A stretch of 64,000 nucleotides of DNA from the NCBI GenBank assembly GCA_040755755.1, contig JBFLZW010000022.1, positions 175,654-239,653 on the forward strand, read 5' to 3'. Position numbers and translations under genes: made by a program. Source of the stretch: a bacterium (GTDB taxonomy: Bacteria; SZUA-182; DTGQ01). Positions 8,162 through 17,171 of the stretch are shown here, piece by piece. How positions within the stretch are numbered: the stretch's first letter is position 1; the number at the start of each line of letters is the position of its first letter. The notes beneath the pieces were generated by a model, which was not told the DNA's origin, made no database searches, and saw only the letters and a list, made by a program, of their open reading frames with translations.

Positions 8162-9739
8162 ATGCGCTATTTTAATACGGCTGGACCGATAAAATGCGAA
8201 GAACATTACTGTTTACCTCCACTTGGACGGTTTAACCTCACGGAAATACTATCCCTGATTTCCCAGAAGAAATACTTTGTGTTACATGCCCCCCGGCAGA
8301 CTGGAAAAACGAGCTATCTTCTCGCATTGATGGATTATCTCAACGCCAGGGAGAGCTATCGATGCCTTTACTTGAATGTCGAAGCGGCTCAAGCTGCCAG
8401 AGAAGATGTCCGGCAAGGCATGAGGGCCATACTGAGCGAGATGGCTTTGAGCGCTGTAGCCTTCCTGAAAGATGATTTCCTCGAATCCTGCTGGGACCAG
8501 GTTTTTGAAAAGAGCGGGGAATATGGTGCCTTAAACATGCTGCTATCCCTCTGGGCCAAAGAGAGTCATCTACCTTTGGTTATTTTAATTGATGAGATCG
8601 ATTCACTGATTGGGGATACTCTGATTTCCCTCTTACGTCAATTACGGGCAGGGTATTCCAAACGTCCGGATATGTTTCCCCAGAGTATCGTGTTGTGCGG
8701 TGTTCGGGACGTGAGAGACTACCGGATACATTCTGCCAAAGATAAAGCAATCATTACCGGAGGAAGTGCTTTCAACATAAAAGCAGAATCTCTGCGGCTT
8801 GGGAACTTCTCCAGAGACGAGGTATTGGCTCTTTATGGAGAGCATACAGAAGAAACGGGTCAGGAATTTACGCATGAAACCCTGAACCTGGTTTGGGACT
8901 TGACGCAGGGGCAGCCCTGGCTGCTCAATGCCCTGGGCTACGAGGTATGTTTTAAAATGGAAGAGGGGCGTGACCGAAGCAAGCCAATTACAGCCGAGAT
9001 GGTGCAGCAGGCCAAAGAAAATATCATTCTCAGGAGGGATACCCACATCGACCAGTTGGCCGACAAGCTGCAGGAAGCGCGGGTCCGCCGGGTGATTGAG
9101 CCAATATTGGAGGGGCATAAAGAACCGGAGCAGATTCCTGTCGAAGACTTATCATATGTTATAGACCTGGGATTGGTGAGAGTTGATGGCCAGTTGCAGA
9201 TAGCAAACCGGATATGTCAGGAGGTGATTCCCCGGGAGCTGACCTATAGCACCCAGGTCACTATCTCGGAGCAGCCTTCATGGTATATCGGTCCGGATGG
9301 CCAACTCGATATGGACAAGCTTCTCGGCTCATTTCAGGAGTTTTTCCGCGAACATTCGGAACATTGGGTAGAGCGGTTTCAGTACAAAGAGGCAGGCCCT
9401 CAACTGCTGCTGCAAGCCTTCCTCCAGAGGATTATCAATGGCGGAGGGAGAGTAGAAAGAGAATACGGCCTTGGCAGAATGCGGACAGACCTTCTCGTTA
9501 TCTGGCCTTTTCAAGCCGGTGTTCAGAAAGTGGTGATTGAGCTGAAAGTGCTCTATAAATCGCTTGACGATACAATTGCCGAGGGGCTGAAACAGACCGT
9601 GGAATATATGGACCGATGCGGTACTGATCAAGGCCACCTGGTGATCTTTGACCGGAGTGAGGGGAAAAGGTGGGAGGATAAGATATTCAAGCGGAAAGAA
9701 AAATACCAAAACAAAAGTATTACCGTATGGGGGATGTGA
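8162..9739 (+). CDS. AAA-type ATPase with C-terminal PD-(D/E)XK nuclease-like domain
   Basis: The 525-aa protein begins after a strong GAAGGAGGTG site. The ATPase domain has Walker A APRQTGKTS (about residues 43-51) and Walker B LVILIDEIDSL (about 139-149). A helical region follows, then a C-terminal nuclease-like domain (about 415-520) with an RTDLLVIW strand followed by VVIELKV, i.e. the D...ExK pattern of PD-(D/E)XK folds. Proteins of this type (AAA_14/PDDEXK_9-like) are abundant, often multicopy, and spread by recombination; their role is unclear, possibly defence or selfish DNA. The last codons (ITVWGM) lie in the sequence repeated next to radC at 12296 and 7767. The ancestral order was therefore probably this ATPase convergent with and touching radC. 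Confidence 0.75.
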   Translation: MRYFNTAGPIKCEEHYCLPPLGRFNLTEILSLISQKKYFVLHAPRQTGKTSYLLALMDYLNARESYRCLYLNVEAAQAAREDVRQGMRAILSEMALSAVAFLKDDFLESCWDQVFEKSGEYGALNMLLSLWAKESHLPLVILIDEIDSLIGDTLISLLRQLRAGYSKRPDMFPQSIVLCGVRDVRDYRIHSAKDKAIITGGSAFNIKAESLRLGNFSRDEVLALYGEHTEETGQEFTHETLNLVWDLTQGQPWLLNALGYEVCFKMEEGRDRSKPITAEMVQQAKENIILRRDTHIDQLADKLQEARVRRVIEPILEGHKEPEQIPVEDLSYVIDLGLVRVDGQLQIANRICQEVIPRELTYSTQVTISEQPSWYIGPDGQLDMDKLLGSFQEFFREHSEHWVERFQYKEAGPQLLLQAFLQRIINGGGRVEREYGLGRMRTDLLVIWPFQAGVQKVVIELKVLYKSLDDTIAEGLKQTVEYMDRCGTDQGHLVIFDRSEGKRWEDKIFKRKEKYQNKSITVWGM

Positions 9740-12295: not shown

Positions 12296-12991
12296 TTACC
12301 GTATGGGGGATGTGAGCAGCCGCCCGGTCTTGATGCTGAAGGCCTGGGAGGGGCAGACGATGAGGTGATCGTGCAGGACGATGTTGAATTCAGAGGCAAG
12401 ATTGTCGATCCGCTGGGTCATATAGTGATCCTGTTCGGAAGGGACCGCCCGGCCGCTGGGATGGTTGTGAACAAGGATCAGGGCCGTAGCGTTGTGCATT
12501 AAAGCGGGTCTGAATATCTCCCTGGGATAAACCGGGGCCTGATCCACCGTCCCTTCCACCAGGATTTCATGGTGAACCAGGCGGTTGGCGGCATTCAGGC
12601 ACAGAACCATCAGGCATTCCCGCTGACTGGCTCCGATTGCCAGACGGACGAAATCCGTTACATCTTCAGGGGAGGAAATCGCGTTGGCCCGCTCGGCCTG
12701 CTGTTCCAGATAGCGGGTTAAAACAGCCCGGATCGAGACTAAAAATGTGGCTGCGAATGGTCCTATGCCGGACACGGTTTGGAGCTTTTCGACCGGCTGG
12801 TCAAAAACAGCGGCAAAGGTGCCAAAGCTGGAAATCAGCTCTTTGGCAATGATCTTGGTATCCTTGCGGGGAATGGCGTACGACAGAATCATTTCGAGAA
12901 GCTCATAATCAGCCAGGGCAGACCGTCCATTTTTCAAGAAACGTTCGCGCAGTCTTGTCCTGTGACCGACCTGCGAATCCGAAACCTTCAT
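12296..12991 (-). CDS. radC: RadC family JAB1/MPN-domain protein
   Basis: ATG 12991 follows AAGGATGG at a good distance; a longer in-frame extension upstream is unlikely. The N-terminal helix-hairpin-helix part (ELLEMILSYAIPRKD, VSGIGPFAA) precedes the JAB domain with LVHNHPSG and S/D at the end of the E...HxH-S-D metal site (PSEQD). RadC proteins are common, often near mobile DNA; their biochemical role is still debated. The 231-aa length is normal. The stop overlaps the 3'-end sequence of the ATPase-nuclease family, and its tail is repeated at 7757 and 9720. Confidence 0.9.
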   Translation of the reverse strand: MKVSDSQVGHRTRLRERFLKNGRSALADYELLEMILSYAIPRKDTKIIAKELISSFGTFAAVFDQPVEKLQTVSGIGPFAATFLVSIRAVLTRYLEQQAERANAISSPEDVTDFVRLAIGASQRECLMVLCLNAANRLVHHEILVEGTVDQAPVYPREIFRPALMHNATALILVHNHPSGRAVPSEQDHYMTQRIDNLASEFNIVLHDHLIVCPSQAFSIKTGRLLTSPIR

Positions 12992-13120
12992 CGGTTTTCC
13001 ATCCTTAAAAATAAAAATACGGCAAAATACCTCTCTCCTCAATATCAGTACCTAGTAAATATACAAAAATTATGAGATAAATGTCAAATTTAAGTTCATC
13101 TCGCAGCAATAAGGATTTAG

Positions 13121-13149
13121 TTTACATTTTCAGGTGTAAATGGTATAAA
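13121..13149 (+). promoter_or_regulatory. Promoter of the grpE-like/hsp70 operon with overlapping palindrome
   Basis: TTTACA (13121-13126) and TATAAA (13144-13149) are spaced by 17 nt. The -35 hexamer is half of an inverted repeat TTTACA-N8-TGTAAA, a possible operator. No CIRCE-like heat-shock element is visible. Confidence 0.55.
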
Positions 13150-13186: not shown

Positions 13187-13867
13187 ATGGTATCCCGGAA
13201 GAAGAAGGTCAGAAGAAAAAGATTTTTTGCCAGCTCTCAGCCTGCACTATTGATCAAGCTAGATAGTGCTGAAGAAGAAATCACCACAGGGGAGGAGGTC
13301 CTTCAGATGGAGAAAGAATGTGCCTGTCAGGCAGGAGAGACTTTTCAAGAAAAGACAGAAGAATCTTTGAAAGAAGAGACAGTGAAGGCTTTTCAAGGAG
13401 GAAGAGAGGAATTGTCCGAAGAAGGCGGTGATGCCCTGACCATTCGGGGTTCCCGGATCGCCGATTCCCTGCTCATGCAGCTTGAGGATGAGGTCATCGG
13501 CTTCATCAACCATCGGCTGGAGGAGCATGTCGTCAAGAGAATCAAAGGCTTATTGGTTCCGGTAGCCAAATTGTCCCTGAAGGTGCACAAGCTGCGAAAA
13601 ACCATGGACAAAGAGACTGCCGAGTGTCTCTCGGATCTTGAAGATGATCTGGATTATATTCTCGAAAACAGCAAGCTGCAGCGGATATCCCCGCAGGCTG
13701 GAGAGAAATTCAATCCCACCCTCCATGAGGAGGTCGATTTTGCCTGGAACCCGGATCGGGGGGAAGCGGAAATTCTGGCTACTGTGCGGGATGGATATTT
13801 CTGGGAATACAACCAGGAAATGATCGTTAAACCTCAGGTTACGGTCAACAGGAGGCTGTCAGCATGA
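13187..13867 (+). CDS. GrpE-like nucleotide exchange factor
   Basis: ATG 13187 is preferred over ATG 13172 because AAAGGAGG sits 6 nt before it. The 226-aa protein has a basic start (SRKKKVRRKR), an acidic variable region (to about residue 85), a helical segment (about 95-160), and a C-terminal part like the GrpE beta domain: FNPTLHEEVDF, then a strand with VRDGYFW and ending in VKPQVTV. GrpE releases ADP from Hsp70. The next gene, an Hsp70, overlaps by ATGA, supporting a dedicated pair. Similarity is remote and mostly in the C-terminal third, so the call rests partly on context. Confidence 0.65.
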   Translation: MVSRKKKVRRKRFFASSQPALLIKLDSAEEEITTGEEVLQMEKECACQAGETFQEKTEESLKEETVKAFQGGREELSEEGGDALTIRGSRIADSLLMQLEDEVIGFINHRLEEHVVKRIKGLLVPVAKLSLKVHKLRKTMDKETAECLSDLEDDLDYILENSKLQRISPQAGEKFNPTLHEEVDFAWNPDRGEAEILATVRDGYFWEYNQEMIVKPQVTVNRRLSA

Positions 13868-15378
13868 AGATCGGCCTTGACTTTGGCACTTCCAACACCG
13901 TAGTCGCCTATCTGGAAAACCATACTCCGGTGGCCATGAAGTTCAAACATGGCGGTCTGGCAAAAGATGTATTCCCTTCGGTCTCGTTCTATCCGGAGGG
14001 GGAGGAAAAAGGAGTACATGGCCTCGAGGCCCTGGAGTACGCTTTTACCCGGCGGGGCACGCTGGTCCGGTCCCTGAAGCGAAGCCTCAAGAATTATCAT
14101 CCGGGCTCACAGCTTCTGGAGGGAGAATTCCAGCGGGGAGTCAGAGAGCTTCTGGTGGATTTCCTCCTCCATCTTAAGGAAACCATTGTTTCGACCCAGC
14201 ATCTTGGCAATGAAGAGCTTGAGGTCCTCCTGACCGTACCGGCCAACGCCAATGGCGCCCAAAGGTTCGTTACCCGGGAATCTTTCCGGGAGGCAGGTTT
14301 TATAGTCTCACCCCGGATCATCGACGAGCCGACAGCTTCAGCCATCGAGTTCTCCTATTCCGGTCTGTCCGGACGACTGTCCTCGCAGGGCAAACCCGTT
14401 TATGTCCTGGTCTACGATCTGGGAGGCGGAACCTTCGATGTTTCCCTGGTCCGGATCGAGCCGGAGCACTACCGGGTCATTGCCTCATCAGGCATCGAGC
14501 AACTGGGGGGGGATGATTTTGACCGCTGCCTGTATCAGATGGTCATAGAAAACAGGGAGTTGACAGATATCACTCCCTTGCAGGAAAAACTGCTGCTTCA
14601 CCGCTGCTGTGAGGCCAAGGAGTCCCTGTCCAATATCATCGATCCCAAATACCTGCGCATCGATCTGGAAGATGCCCATATCGGTGAAGGGTCGGTAAGG
14701 ATCCGGGTGGAGGATTACTATGAGCGCATCCTTCCCCTGGTCAATCAGACCCTTGGCAAGCTCGAAGAAGTGCTGCGGTCACCGAACGCTCAGGCCGAAG
14801 GGATCAGCAGCCTCGAGCAGATCGAAAAAATCTACCTGGTGGGCGGAAGCTCCCAGCTCCCCCTGATCCTGAAGCGGGTGCAGGGGAAGTACGGCCAGGA
14901 CAAGGTGCACCTTTCAAGCCTTCCCTTCGCCTCCATAGCGCTTGGAGCCTGTCATATGGCCCAGCAGAAGATCCAGGTCGAGCAGGTCTTGAACCGGACC
15001 TTCGGCGTCATCCGTACAGCCGGTGGACGAGAGTATTTCGATCCGATCTTCGAGAAGGGGACCAGGATCCCTACTGCCAAACGGTTCGAAATTTATCCTG
15101 AACACAACATCGGCTACTACCGCTATCTGGAATGTGCCGAGCACCGCGATGGCCAGGCCATAGCACCACGGATGTGGAGCGAGATTTTCTTCCCCTACGA
15201 TCCTGCCTGGAACCTGTCCCGAATGCCGCAGCCAGGCGATATTGAGGTCAAGCACTACGGGATGAACAGGAACAGGGTCATTGAGGAATTTTCCTGCGAT
15301 GAAAACGGTATCATTACCGTAAATCTCATTCGGGAGGCTGATTCCGTATCGATGAATTATGAGATCTGGGAAGTATGA
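13864..15378 (+). CDS. Hsp70-family chaperone with shortened C-terminus
   Basis: The ATPase domain is clear: phosphate-1 loop IGLDFGTSNTVVAY (residues 3-16), phosphate-2 loop DLGGGTFDVS (about 182-191), and adenosine loop YLVGGSSQLP (about 327-336). The C-terminal 125 residues form a reduced beta-type substrate domain rich in Tyr and Trp (IGYYRYLE, FPYDPAW). The alpha-helical lid and the acidic tail of DnaK are absent (504 aa against about 640). It is translationally coupled to the GrpE-like gene. No dnaJ is nearby. It resembles HscC/YegD-type specialised Hsp70s rather than housekeeping DnaK. It ends 4 nt from the convergent HD-GYP gene. Confidence 0.85.
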   Translation: MKIGLDFGTSNTVVAYLENHTPVAMKFKHGGLAKDVFPSVSFYPEGEEKGVHGLEALEYAFTRRGTLVRSLKRSLKNYHPGSQLLEGEFQRGVRELLVDFLLHLKETIVSTQHLGNEELEVLLTVPANANGAQRFVTRESFREAGFIVSPRIIDEPTASAIEFSYSGLSGRLSSQGKPVYVLVYDLGGGTFDVSLVRIEPEHYRVIASSGIEQLGGDDFDRCLYQMVIENRELTDITPLQEKLLLHRCCEAKESLSNIIDPKYLRIDLEDAHIGEGSVRIRVEDYYERILPLVNQTLGKLEEVLRSPNAQAEGISSLEQIEKIYLVGGSSQLPLILKRVQGKYGQDKVHLSSLPFASIALGACHMAQQKIQVEQVLNRTFGVIRTAGGREYFDPIFEKGTRIPTAKRFEIYPEHNIGYYRYLECAEHRDGQAIAPRMWSEIFFPYDPAWNLSRMPQPGDIEVKHYGMNRNRVIEEFSCDENGIITVNLIREADSVSMNYEIWEV

Positions 15379-15382
15379 TTAA

Positions 15383-16750
15383 TTAATTATCCAGGCACTC
15401 TCTCCCCGAACACTTTTTCTCCGGGAAATGCCGGCAATAGAGGGGGATGTCCCGAAAGGTTTTGTTCCAGTTCCTGGCCAGCTCTTCAAGGGAGGAGTTG
15501 CGCTCCTGAGATTCCCTCTCCCAGACATCCAGGTTATCAGCGAGACATTTTTCCAGCAGCTCAACGGCTCTGGGCAGGATAATCCTGGGGGAGATGCAGC
15601 TTCCAGTGCCGGAATTCTGGCATTTGAACTCGATCAGGGCGTCGGTCAGGCTTAAAATTTTTTCCTTGGGTTTATAATACCGCCAGGAAGTCATGGCATC
15701 AAAGCAGTCAGCCAGAATGAGAATGCTCAGCGACAGGTCCATGTCTCCCCTCGGCTTGCGGTAGTAACCCATGCCATCGCACCGCTCATGGTGGTTGGTA
15801 ATGAGCCGCAGCACCTGCGGGCTGACATTCACCATGTCGAGGAGCTTGTAGGCATAGAAGGGGTGCCGCTTGATTTCCCGGTACTCCGATTCGGTAATCC
15901 TGCCCGGTTTGTTGAGAATGCCGTCAGGAATACTGATTTTCCCGACATCATGCAGCTCTGCAGCCAGAATGAGATTGTCGGCATCCTCCTCCCGGAAACC
16001 GGGGTCTTTCTCCTGAAGGGCCTTCTGGCTGATGGCCCTGACATATTTGGTAACAAAATCCGCGTGCATGTAGGAATAGATGTCCTTGGCCTCGAGCGCC
16101 TTGAGAAATGCTTTTTTGATGTTTTGTCCCTGCTCTGCCTGAAGCTTGAAGATTAAGAACTTGTTGAAGATCTTACTGATGTAGTAAAGATCCCTCCACT
16201 GGTTTTCAATCTCGGAGGCATACCGGCTGCTGGTTTTTTTCTCGCAGGCAAAGAACAGCATCCCTTTTTTCTGGCTGGTGGCGTCGCAGATCGGGAAGAA
16301 GCCATACACAAAGCTGACGAACTGATTATTGATGACCACCTGGTCCTCATCAGGGAAACAGAACGGAATATGAGGCAGATCATCCCCTATGCCCAGAAGG
16401 TTCTGGACCATATGAGAGCTGGTCTGGTTTTTAAAATTATAGAGCGTGCGGACCCTTTTTTCCCAGGGCAAATAACCGGTACCGAACGGGAGATAATGAG
16501 TCTGGCCTTCCTGGTCGGTTTGAATAAAAAAACCCGCTTTCAGGTGAAAAAACTTCTGGCAGATGCGGTCAACTCTGGACAGAAAGTCCTGCATCGAGGT
16601 CTTATAGTAATCTACGTCAGTGTATAATTCCTTGAGAATCTCGTAAAACTCAATGTCCTTGAACTGATCCACAAAAACCAACCTTTTACCGTTCACAGTA
16701 TATAGTATTGTTGTATTGTCCGCTAGTATTGTTGTATTGTCCGCGGCCAA
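15383..16750 (-). CDS. HD-GYP domain protein, predicted c-di-GMP phosphodiesterase
   Basis: An N-terminal GAF-like sensory region (about residues 30-200) precedes an HD-GYP domain (about 215-400). Key motifs are ELHDVGK (metal HD pair near 267), ISIPDGILNKPG, IKRHP, NHHER and CDGMGYYRKPRG, the GYP-type loop in variant form. HD-GYP enzymes hydrolyse cyclic di-GMP. The C-terminus has Cys-rich YCRHFPEKKCSG. The start is TTG 16750, 1 nt after the receiver gene's stop, so the two are coupled. The first codons contain a 21-bp tandem duplication (16700-16742) that encodes the repeated ADNTTIL, placing the repeat at the translation start. Confidence 0.82.
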   Translation of the reverse strand: MAADNTTILADNTTILYTVNGKRLVFVDQFKDIEFYEILKELYTDVDYYKTSMQDFLSRVDRICQKFFHLKAGFFIQTDQEGQTHYLPFGTGYLPWEKRVRTLYNFKNQTSSHMVQNLLGIGDDLPHIPFCFPDEDQVVINNQFVSFVYGFFPICDATSQKKGMLFFACEKKTSSRYASEIENQWRDLYYISKIFNKFLIFKLQAEQGQNIKKAFLKALEAKDIYSYMHADFVTKYVRAISQKALQEKDPGFREEDADNLILAAELHDVGKISIPDGILNKPGRITESEYREIKRHPFYAYKLLDMVNVSPQVLRLITNHHERCDGMGYYRKPRGDMDLSLSILILADCFDAMTSWRYYKPKEKILSLTDALIEFKCQNSGTGSCISPRIILPRAVELLEKCLADNLDVWERESQERNSSLEELARNWNKTFRDIPLYCRHFPEKKCSGRECLDN

Positions 16751-16751
16751 A

Positions 16752-17171
16752 TCAGATGCTCAGCGGATTTTGCTTCTGTGAAATGTATTTGAGCATGTTT
16801 TCCTTTTGAAAGGACTTGTTGAACAGAGGACAATCGATTTTTCTGGCTGCACCCTCGATCCAGGGGTCTTCCCAGGAGCTCATGAGAATGACCTTATCGA
16901 GCATCTCCTTATTCTGCCCCCACTTCTCAGCGACATAGATAATTCCATAGGGTCCAACGTACTCCTCTTTGGTACCCATCTTTTGGGCAAGCTTCTTGGA
17001 GCGGCAAATAACATCCATGATAATAATGTCGTTATTTTCGATCTGACTGATCTTTTCATCCATCTCATCGAGATTGTTAATAACGACTACATTATTGCCC
17101 ATCTTTTCCAGATCATTCACCATAGCTTTAGACATTTGGATATCATCGTCGAACAAGATTATAGATGCCAT
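16752..17171 (-). CDS. Stand-alone response-regulator receiver protein
   Basis: The 139-aa protein has the receiver acidic pair (FDDD, residues 7-10), the phosphoacceptor Asp in IIIMD (about 53), Ser in ILMSS and the conserved Lys in FNKSF (about 119). A linker of about 35 residues between beta-3 and beta-4 (RSKKLAQKMGTKEEY) is longer than usual. No output domain is present. AGGAGGG precedes the ATG by 8 nt. It is coupled to the downstream HD-GYP gene, which is probably its output partner. Confidence 0.78.
   Translation of the reverse strand: MASIILFDDDIQMSKAMVNDLEKMGNNVVVINNLDEMDEKISQIENNDIIIMDVICRSKKLAQKMGTKEEYVGPYGIIYVAEKWGQNKEMLDKVILMSSWEDPWIEGAARKIDCPLFNKSFQKENMLKYISQKQNPLSI

Follow-up and report, generated by a model that had tools for sequence, protein, structure and literature searches.

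The locus and its setting

The window considered here, that is, the whole stretch of 64,000 nucleotides that was analysed, corresponds to positions 175654-239653 of contig C22 in a bacterial genome (G000) of 5.26 Mb in 88 contigs. Both open reading frames of the GrpE-like/Hsp70 pair predicted from the letters at 13187-15378 are present, one of 226 aa (13187-13867) and one of 504 aa (13864-15378), and their ATGA overlap together with their Pfam matches confirmed that the pair is real. The features of the region are as follows:

12296 to 13042, minus strand: radC, the divergent neighbour upstream of the pair (Pfam RadC, 132.5 bits, and synteny)
13121 to 13149, plus strand: promoter-like TTTACA-17-TATAAA with TG before the second box (same spacing in all four relatives, read by eye)
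13187 to 13867, plus strand: GrpE-like protein, 226 aa (Pfam GrpE, profile-profile match, orthologues in G001, G002 and G003)
13864 to 13867, plus strand: ATGA overlap of the GrpE-like stop and the Hsp70 start (window sequence)
13864 to 15378, plus strand: Hsp70 of a short, lidless type, 504 aa (Pfam HSP70, 124.4 bits; nucleotide-binding domain tree, 100/97)
13864 to 14961, plus strand: nucleotide-binding domain (NBD), residues 1 to about 366 (PDB profile match of residues 3-365 to DnaK NBDs)
15013 to 15375, plus strand: divergent beta part of the substrate-binding domain (SBD-beta) with no lid behind it (hhalign, 87.2%, 98 columns)

As also anticipated, no DnaJ accompanies the pair: the Pfam DnaJ model has five matches in the genome, all on other contigs, and detects no J-domain gene on contig C22. 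Next to the pair, radC carries a TTGACA-18-TATATT match at 13087-13058, whereas on the other side an HD-domain protein and a receiver-like protein without Pfam match (15383-17171) are convergent with the pair; these last two genes are kept in G001 and are not near the pair in G002. Farther upstream, at 8162-9739, the window encodes an AAA-type ATPase of 525 aa (AAA_35), with a candidate nuclease-like C-terminus as judged by eye.

When close matches to either protein were searched among 60 relatives, they were found in G000, G001, G002 and G003 only. The pair is thus present in four of the nine genomes examined of the phylum, all four of one family and all four matched by a C-terminal profile of the Hsp70, and both genes occur in every genome of that family examined. 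A fifth GrpE match, in G010 (E 1e-4, 21% identity, containing a stop), was dropped, and the Hsp70 of G003 is split across two contig ends. The four-base overlap is repeated in G001 and G003 and replaced in G002 by a gap of 2 bases. A check for conserved neighbours, as the original prediction had suggested, showed that radC stands divergent upstream of the pair in the four genomes and is the only neighbour kept beside it in all of them. In G001 the genes downstream of the pair correspond to those of the window too, and in the stretches of G002 and G003 that were compared no other near-neighbour was found; some genes of these two genomes match window genes lying far from the pair, one of them at 68% identity. 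Between G000 and G001 both genes are under purifying selection, with dN 0.113 and dS 1.14 for the Hsp70 and dN 0.239 and dS 1.16 for the GrpE-like gene, values which rule out a reading of the pair as pseudogenes.

The sequence upstream of the pair had been described as a TTTACA/TGTAAA palindrome without a heat-shock element, and here the comparison of relatives gave a different picture. The letters of the palindrome occur once in the window (0 expected), but its TGTAAA arm sits in the spacer of the promoter, a place where it is found in the window alone; a further TGTAAA closer to the start codon exists in G000 and G001 and not in G002 and G003. What the four genomes share is not the palindrome but a TTTACA or TTTACT box followed 17 bases on by a TATAA box. 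In the window these boxes are TTTACA (13121-13126) and TATAAA (13144-13149), and across the four relatives they read TTTACA/TATAAA, TTTACA/TATAAA, TTTACA/TATAAC and, in G003, TTTACT/TATAAA. A pattern built from the four promoters is expected 0.02 times per window, and a scan with a generic consensus missed this promoter because the sixth base of its second box had to be T. An operator role for the palindrome was discarded, its right arm being missing in the three relatives and its TTTACA being the -35 box of the kept promoter. As for the heat-shock element, the statement holds for CIRCE, which was not found anywhere in the 64-kb window by a search whose positive control was the perfect CIRCE preceding hrcA in the same genome.

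A GrpE family protein with a basic tail

The 226-aa protein is, by its sequence, a member of the GrpE family, as had been proposed. Pfam PF01025 matches its residues 117-221 with 37.4 bits against a cut-off of 25.8, and its orthologues score 40.8 (G001), 28.2 (G003) and 26.2 (G002, with neighbours in frame). Moreover, in a profile comparison by hhalign the four orthologues matched seven further GrpEs from their own bacterial family at 92.6% over 69 C-terminal columns, and the alignment reveals positions of the beta-domain common to both groups. From its N-terminus the protein comprises a basic tail (residues 1-24), an acidic stretch (28-85), helices and the C-terminal GrpE beta-domain. The acidic stretch, with 18 D/E and 5 K/R, bears out the long acidic region first noticed by inspection, while the tail ahead of it was absent from the original prediction; in the four orthologues, K and R together account for 9, 9, 10 and 14 of the 24 N-terminal residues. 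A structure model shows long helices and then strands, as in GrpE, in a model of low quality (pLDDT 42.4), and a PDB search with the profile of the GrpE-like protein returned no match up to E 10. Among the NCBIfam models matched, neither this protein nor the 504-aa Hsp70 attains the cut-off of any.

A short Hsp70 lacking the lid

The 504-aa protein scores 124.4 bits with PF00012, for which the cut-off is 20.6, and remains far below the NCBIfam cut-offs of the DnaK equivalog PRK00290 (131.2 against 648 bits) and of HscA (147.5 against 708.55 bits). Three features of canonical DnaK are not found in it: the alpha-helical lid, the VLLLD linker and a score above the PRK00290 cut-off. Judged by its sequence, it belongs to the Hsp70 superfamily and is neither DnaK nor HscA. 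Searches among plasmid records gave matches below 60% identity in all cases listed (15 of 239 and 15 of 192 matches), either named DnaK, HscA, HscC or Hsp70 family protein or left without name.

The absence of the lid was correctly predicted, since the three window-family Hsp70s inspected have 0 residues at or beyond position 509 of Escherichia coli DnaK, compared with 0 to 13 in 14 short solitary relatives (see below) and 22 to 259 in 17 canonical Hsp70s, the eighteenth being cut by the end of its locus and so left out of the count. The terminal domain had been called Tyr/Trp-rich, and the enrichment is there (the C-terminal 121 residues include 8 Y and 3 W; no Y and no W at 393-507 of E. coli DnaK), but the domain is a divergent SBD-beta instead of an unrelated module. 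A profile of 18 rows compared with 25 full-length Hsp70s matched the SBD-beta at 87.2% over 98 columns, with control values of 0.14% for both the lid and the NBD; with the four window-family rows alone the match is weak (34.9%, 17 columns). An unrelated C-terminal domain was also considered and rejected, as there is no Pfam match in that part, a single insignificant PDB row (E 1) and a profile comparison that gives SBD-beta. The two structure models have pLDDT of 42.4 and 38.6 and are too poor for reading a fold.

An intact ATPase site with altered interdomain residues

Residues were compared in E. coli DnaK numbering for three window-family Hsp70s. All three keep the nine catalytic and switch residues, namely the catalytic set of the NBD (D8, T11, K70, E171, D194, T199 and D201) plus P143 and R151. 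On the other hand, the residues with which DnaK transmits the interdomain signal or contacts the J domain are mostly changed. D148 is replaced by G in the three proteins (D in 20 of 20 canonical-like Hsp70s compared), Q378 by M in the three (Q in 19 of 20), D393 by Q, Q and P (D in 19 of 20) and N170 by D, D and E, whereas R167, a J-domain contact, is kept in two of the three. The VLLLD linker is missing in all four window-family Hsp70s. In DnaK, replacement of the hydrophobic linker residues or of D393 abrogates or greatly reduces the rise in ATPase activity given by the linker, as reported in PMC8215388. The short solitary relatives have D (7 of 14) or E (7 of 14) at position 393 and L at position 391 in 13 of 14, so that loss of the linker is no mark of the whole clade; at R167, 10 of the 14 have A.

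The stretch from E267 to the next helix, which holds the GrpE signature of DnaK (290-295), is altered as well. It has 39 residues in the window Hsp70, whereas 17 of 18 canonical Hsp70s have 45 and the other one 41; HscA has 35, HscC 37 and the solitary relatives 28 to 40, hence the shortening belongs to the clade. Moreover, both salt bridges of the nucleotide cleft are lost (K55 to L and R56 to E in all three proteins), and ADP may therefore leave unaided. HscA and HscC lack DnaK's GrpE signature and are believed to work without GrpE (PMC8215388). In these traits the window Hsp70 looks like a GrpE-free Hsp70, yet its lineage is the only one of its clade seen with an adjacent GrpE gene. Either both proteins have changed together or the GrpE-like protein has another job.

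A wider clade of solitary relatives

The C-terminal profile found relatives of the window Hsp70 in 22 of 195 genomes of another phylum, of which the match in G225 (E 0.02, containing a stop) was dropped, and no match in the two genomes of the phylum of G052. An enlarged profile had matches in nine of 386 diverse genomes, the four of the family together with G283, G449, G550, G552 and G381. The protein of G381 turned out to be an ordinary Hsp70. In total, 25 short solitary relatives were considered (loci L088-L107, L116 and L131-L134). Their C-terminal domain is that of the window Hsp70, with HNxGxxRxxEC, FPFDP-like and VEE...G motifs, and at most 13 residues follow the SBD-beta. A tree of the NBD, built from 358 columns without the C-terminus, joined three window-family proteins and 14 of the 25 short relatives, the other 11 being left out, with support of 100/97. 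Five other Hsp70s of G000 fall apart from this short clade, and E. coli HscC lies on the canonical side, although its long branch makes this place unsure. A clade of short Hsp70s thus exists in several phyla, and the NCBIfam models scanned match it far below their cut-offs only.

An earlier search for GrpE genes next to these Hsp70s had relied on cruder gene lists and on small loci, in which only about 0.4 kb of DNA precedes the Hsp70 gene. In wider stretches, every open frame of at least 50 aa from stop to stop was compared with three GrpE profiles, from window-family and E. coli GrpEs, at E 0.1. None of the 25 short solitary Hsp70s has a GrpE gene nearby (upstream DNA being absent for the partial gene of G550 and limited to 0.6 kb in G088 and 0.9 kb in G089), while the positive controls, the window, G001, G002 and G003, all matched. 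The GrpE partner consequently appears to be specific to the window lineage.

Other Hsp70, GrpE and J genes in the family

The pair is one of several Hsp70 systems in its genome. In G000, Pfam gives five matches each for GrpE and DnaJ; the genome has a classical dnaK-grpE-dnaJ set, three J proteins with the HPD motif, on contigs C2, C6 and C13, and J proteins without it on C1 and C53. Among the 19 Pfam DnaJ matches of G000 to G003, HPD is present in 13 and missing in six. These six are two proteins of the C1 type described below and four longer J-domain proteins of 213-229 aa (L073, L173, L174 and L175, one in each of G000 to G003), which have QPD, QID or QED in place of HPD.

Two further cassettes combine these functions in G000. 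The one on C1 (L048, 7072-12715; also L086) encodes a TPR protein, a J-like protein, a GrpE and an Hsp70, and the one on C60 (L081, 7168-13455; also L084) an Hsp70, a LysM protein, a TPR protein, a J-like protein and a GrpE. The J-like proteins of both cassettes are without HPD in the four copies; the C60 type lies below the Pfam DnaJ cut-off (23.0 against 27.8), so its name is tentative. The Hsp70 of the C60 cassette, of 788 aa (L081, 11089-13455), has a zinc-ribbon-like stretch, just below its Pfam cut-off, at residues 418-441, where the linker is expected. Contig C31 carries an hrcA-grpE operon with a perfect CIRCE and no dnaK (L082, 7564-9256), in whose place contig C17 of G002 has hrcA-grpE-dnaK (L085, 6517-10373). 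Finally, contig C55 encodes two Hsp70-like proteins (986 and 619 aa; L083, 5938-13437) that are highly divergent and separated by three listed genes; in the tree they lie at a great distance from every other Hsp70, and no GrpE was seen beside them.

Interpretation

By its anatomy, the pair resembles a reduced Hsp70-GrpE machine and would be a specialised offshoot of the Hsp70 system. This part of the original prediction, a specialised Hsp70 with a GrpE homologue of its own, stood up: the partner is a GrpE by Pfam and by profiles, the contig has no J gene and CIRCE is lacking. J proteins are generally held to be the obligate partners that choose the clients of Hsp70s. With some hesitation, we favour a dedicated two-protein chaperone unit, probably constitutively expressed, because both genes occur in the four genomes of the family and are under purifying selection between G000 and G001; because the ATPase residues are kept while D393, D148 and Q378 are replaced and the VLLLD linker and the lid are absent; and because no J gene lies on the contig, the promoter is kept in all four genomes and CIRCE is missing. 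A GrpE-Hsp70 operon of Myxococcus xanthus and the linker data of DnaK argue in the same direction (PMC11019930, PMC8215388).

In such a unit the Hsp70 would bind one or few clients through its open beta domain, acting less to refold them than to hold or regulate them, and no J partner of its own would take part in its ATP cycle. The dimer of the GrpE-like protein would be an obligate partner that resets the nucleotide state, and its basic tail may, as a guess, place the pair in the cell, a job done elsewhere by J proteins. A dedicated client or signalling role for the pair can be inferred, and the neighbour RadC offers the only lead to a client. The main doubt concerns the role of the GrpE-like protein, in view of the shortened GrpE-signature stretch (39 against 45 residues) and the loss of both cleft salt bridges. 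It also counts against a dedicated unit that R167 is kept in two of three proteins and that linker loss is not clade-wide; moreover, HPD-bearing DnaJ proteins encoded elsewhere could serve in trans.

This last point leads to an ordinary Hsp70 side system, with the usual cycle run by the DnaJ of C6, C13 or C2 and the GrpE-like protein as a normal nucleotide exchange factor, a reading that is possible if somewhat doubtful. G000 does encode three J proteins with HPD on these contigs, R167 is retained in two of three proteins, and in M. xanthus a GrpE-SglK operon has no J gene, J proteins common to both DnaKs having been described there (PMC11019930). Such a cycle is harder to reconcile with the loss of D393, Q378 and the VLLLD linker, with the shortened GrpE-signature stretch and with the lack of a lid.

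A J-free Hsp70 machine, in which the GrpE-like protein alone would set both the cycle of the lidless Hsp70 and, through targeting by its basic tail, its place in the cell, is rather unlikely. In the same family, two other Hsp70-GrpE pairs stand next to J-like proteins that lack HPD, so the lineage would show a tendency to lose control by J proteins, and a pair without any J fits that trend.

A signalling Hsp70 comparable to StkA of M. xanthus, working as a nucleotide switch on a pathway such as exopolysaccharide or surface behaviour with little chaperoning and with GrpE as exchange factor, is still less probable. StkA, with 540 aa, is of similar size, is not heat-induced and acts as a negative regulator of exopolysaccharide (PMC4319316), and the allosteric residues of the window Hsp70 are degraded; against this, stkA adjoins stkB and stkC, and among 27 loci of SCP2, the family of StkB, in six genomes, a single one has an Hsp70 near it, of the ordinary type. 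Least probable of all is a GrpE-like protein that has lost nucleotide exchange and serves as a structural subunit covering or positioning the lidless beta domain, since its C-terminal beta domain, where the matches to Pfam and to the profiles fall, is well conserved, even if the short GrpE-signature stretch and lost salt bridges recall HscA and HscC, thought to be GrpE-free (PMC8215388), and its gene is nonetheless under purifying selection between G000 and G001.

A natural Hsp70 that has a GrpE but has lost the linker, the lid and some J contacts would offer a direct test of what J proteins, lids and exchange factors each contribute.

Comparison with known systems

The closest layout is that of M. 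xanthus, where the GrpE MXAN_6672 and SglK (MxDnaK2, MXAN_6671) are encoded in a bicistronic operon with the GrpE gene upstream and no J gene; heat shock reduces expression of this operon, its two products interact, and recognition of the exchange factor by the NBD is documented (PMC11019930). The window pair is likewise a two-gene unit with the GrpE gene upstream. However, SglK is a canonical DnaK, with a PRK00290 domain and the ability to let an E. coli strain mutated in dnaK grow again (PMC8265645), whereas the window Hsp70 is short, lidless and of another clade than E. coli DnaK. This tested precedent makes the layout less novel and does not affect the novelty of the protein type. No paper naming both grpS and sglK was found, and the titles and abstract openings of the matches listed contained no matching system for lidless Hsp70s, non-canonical Hsp70s with GrpE or J-like proteins without HPD.

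Compared by its description, StkA resembles the window Hsp70 in being short and specialised and differs in that no GrpE neighbour is named there (PMC4319316). The short solitary Hsp70s share the NBD clade and the C-terminal domain of the window protein but have no GrpE nearby and a less degraded linker. HscA (with HscB) and HscC (with DjlB/DjlC) of E. coli are specialised too and have a shortened GrpE-signature stretch (PMC8215388), yet both retain a lid, of 111 and 81 residues respectively, as well as J partners, and are believed to work without GrpE. In the window pair the situation is reversed, with no lid, no J gene and a GrpE of its own. With the DnaK-GrpE-DnaJ system it has in common the ATPase site and GrpE homology, and it departs from that system in the absence of the lid and of a J gene in the unit and in its changed linker and allosteric residues.
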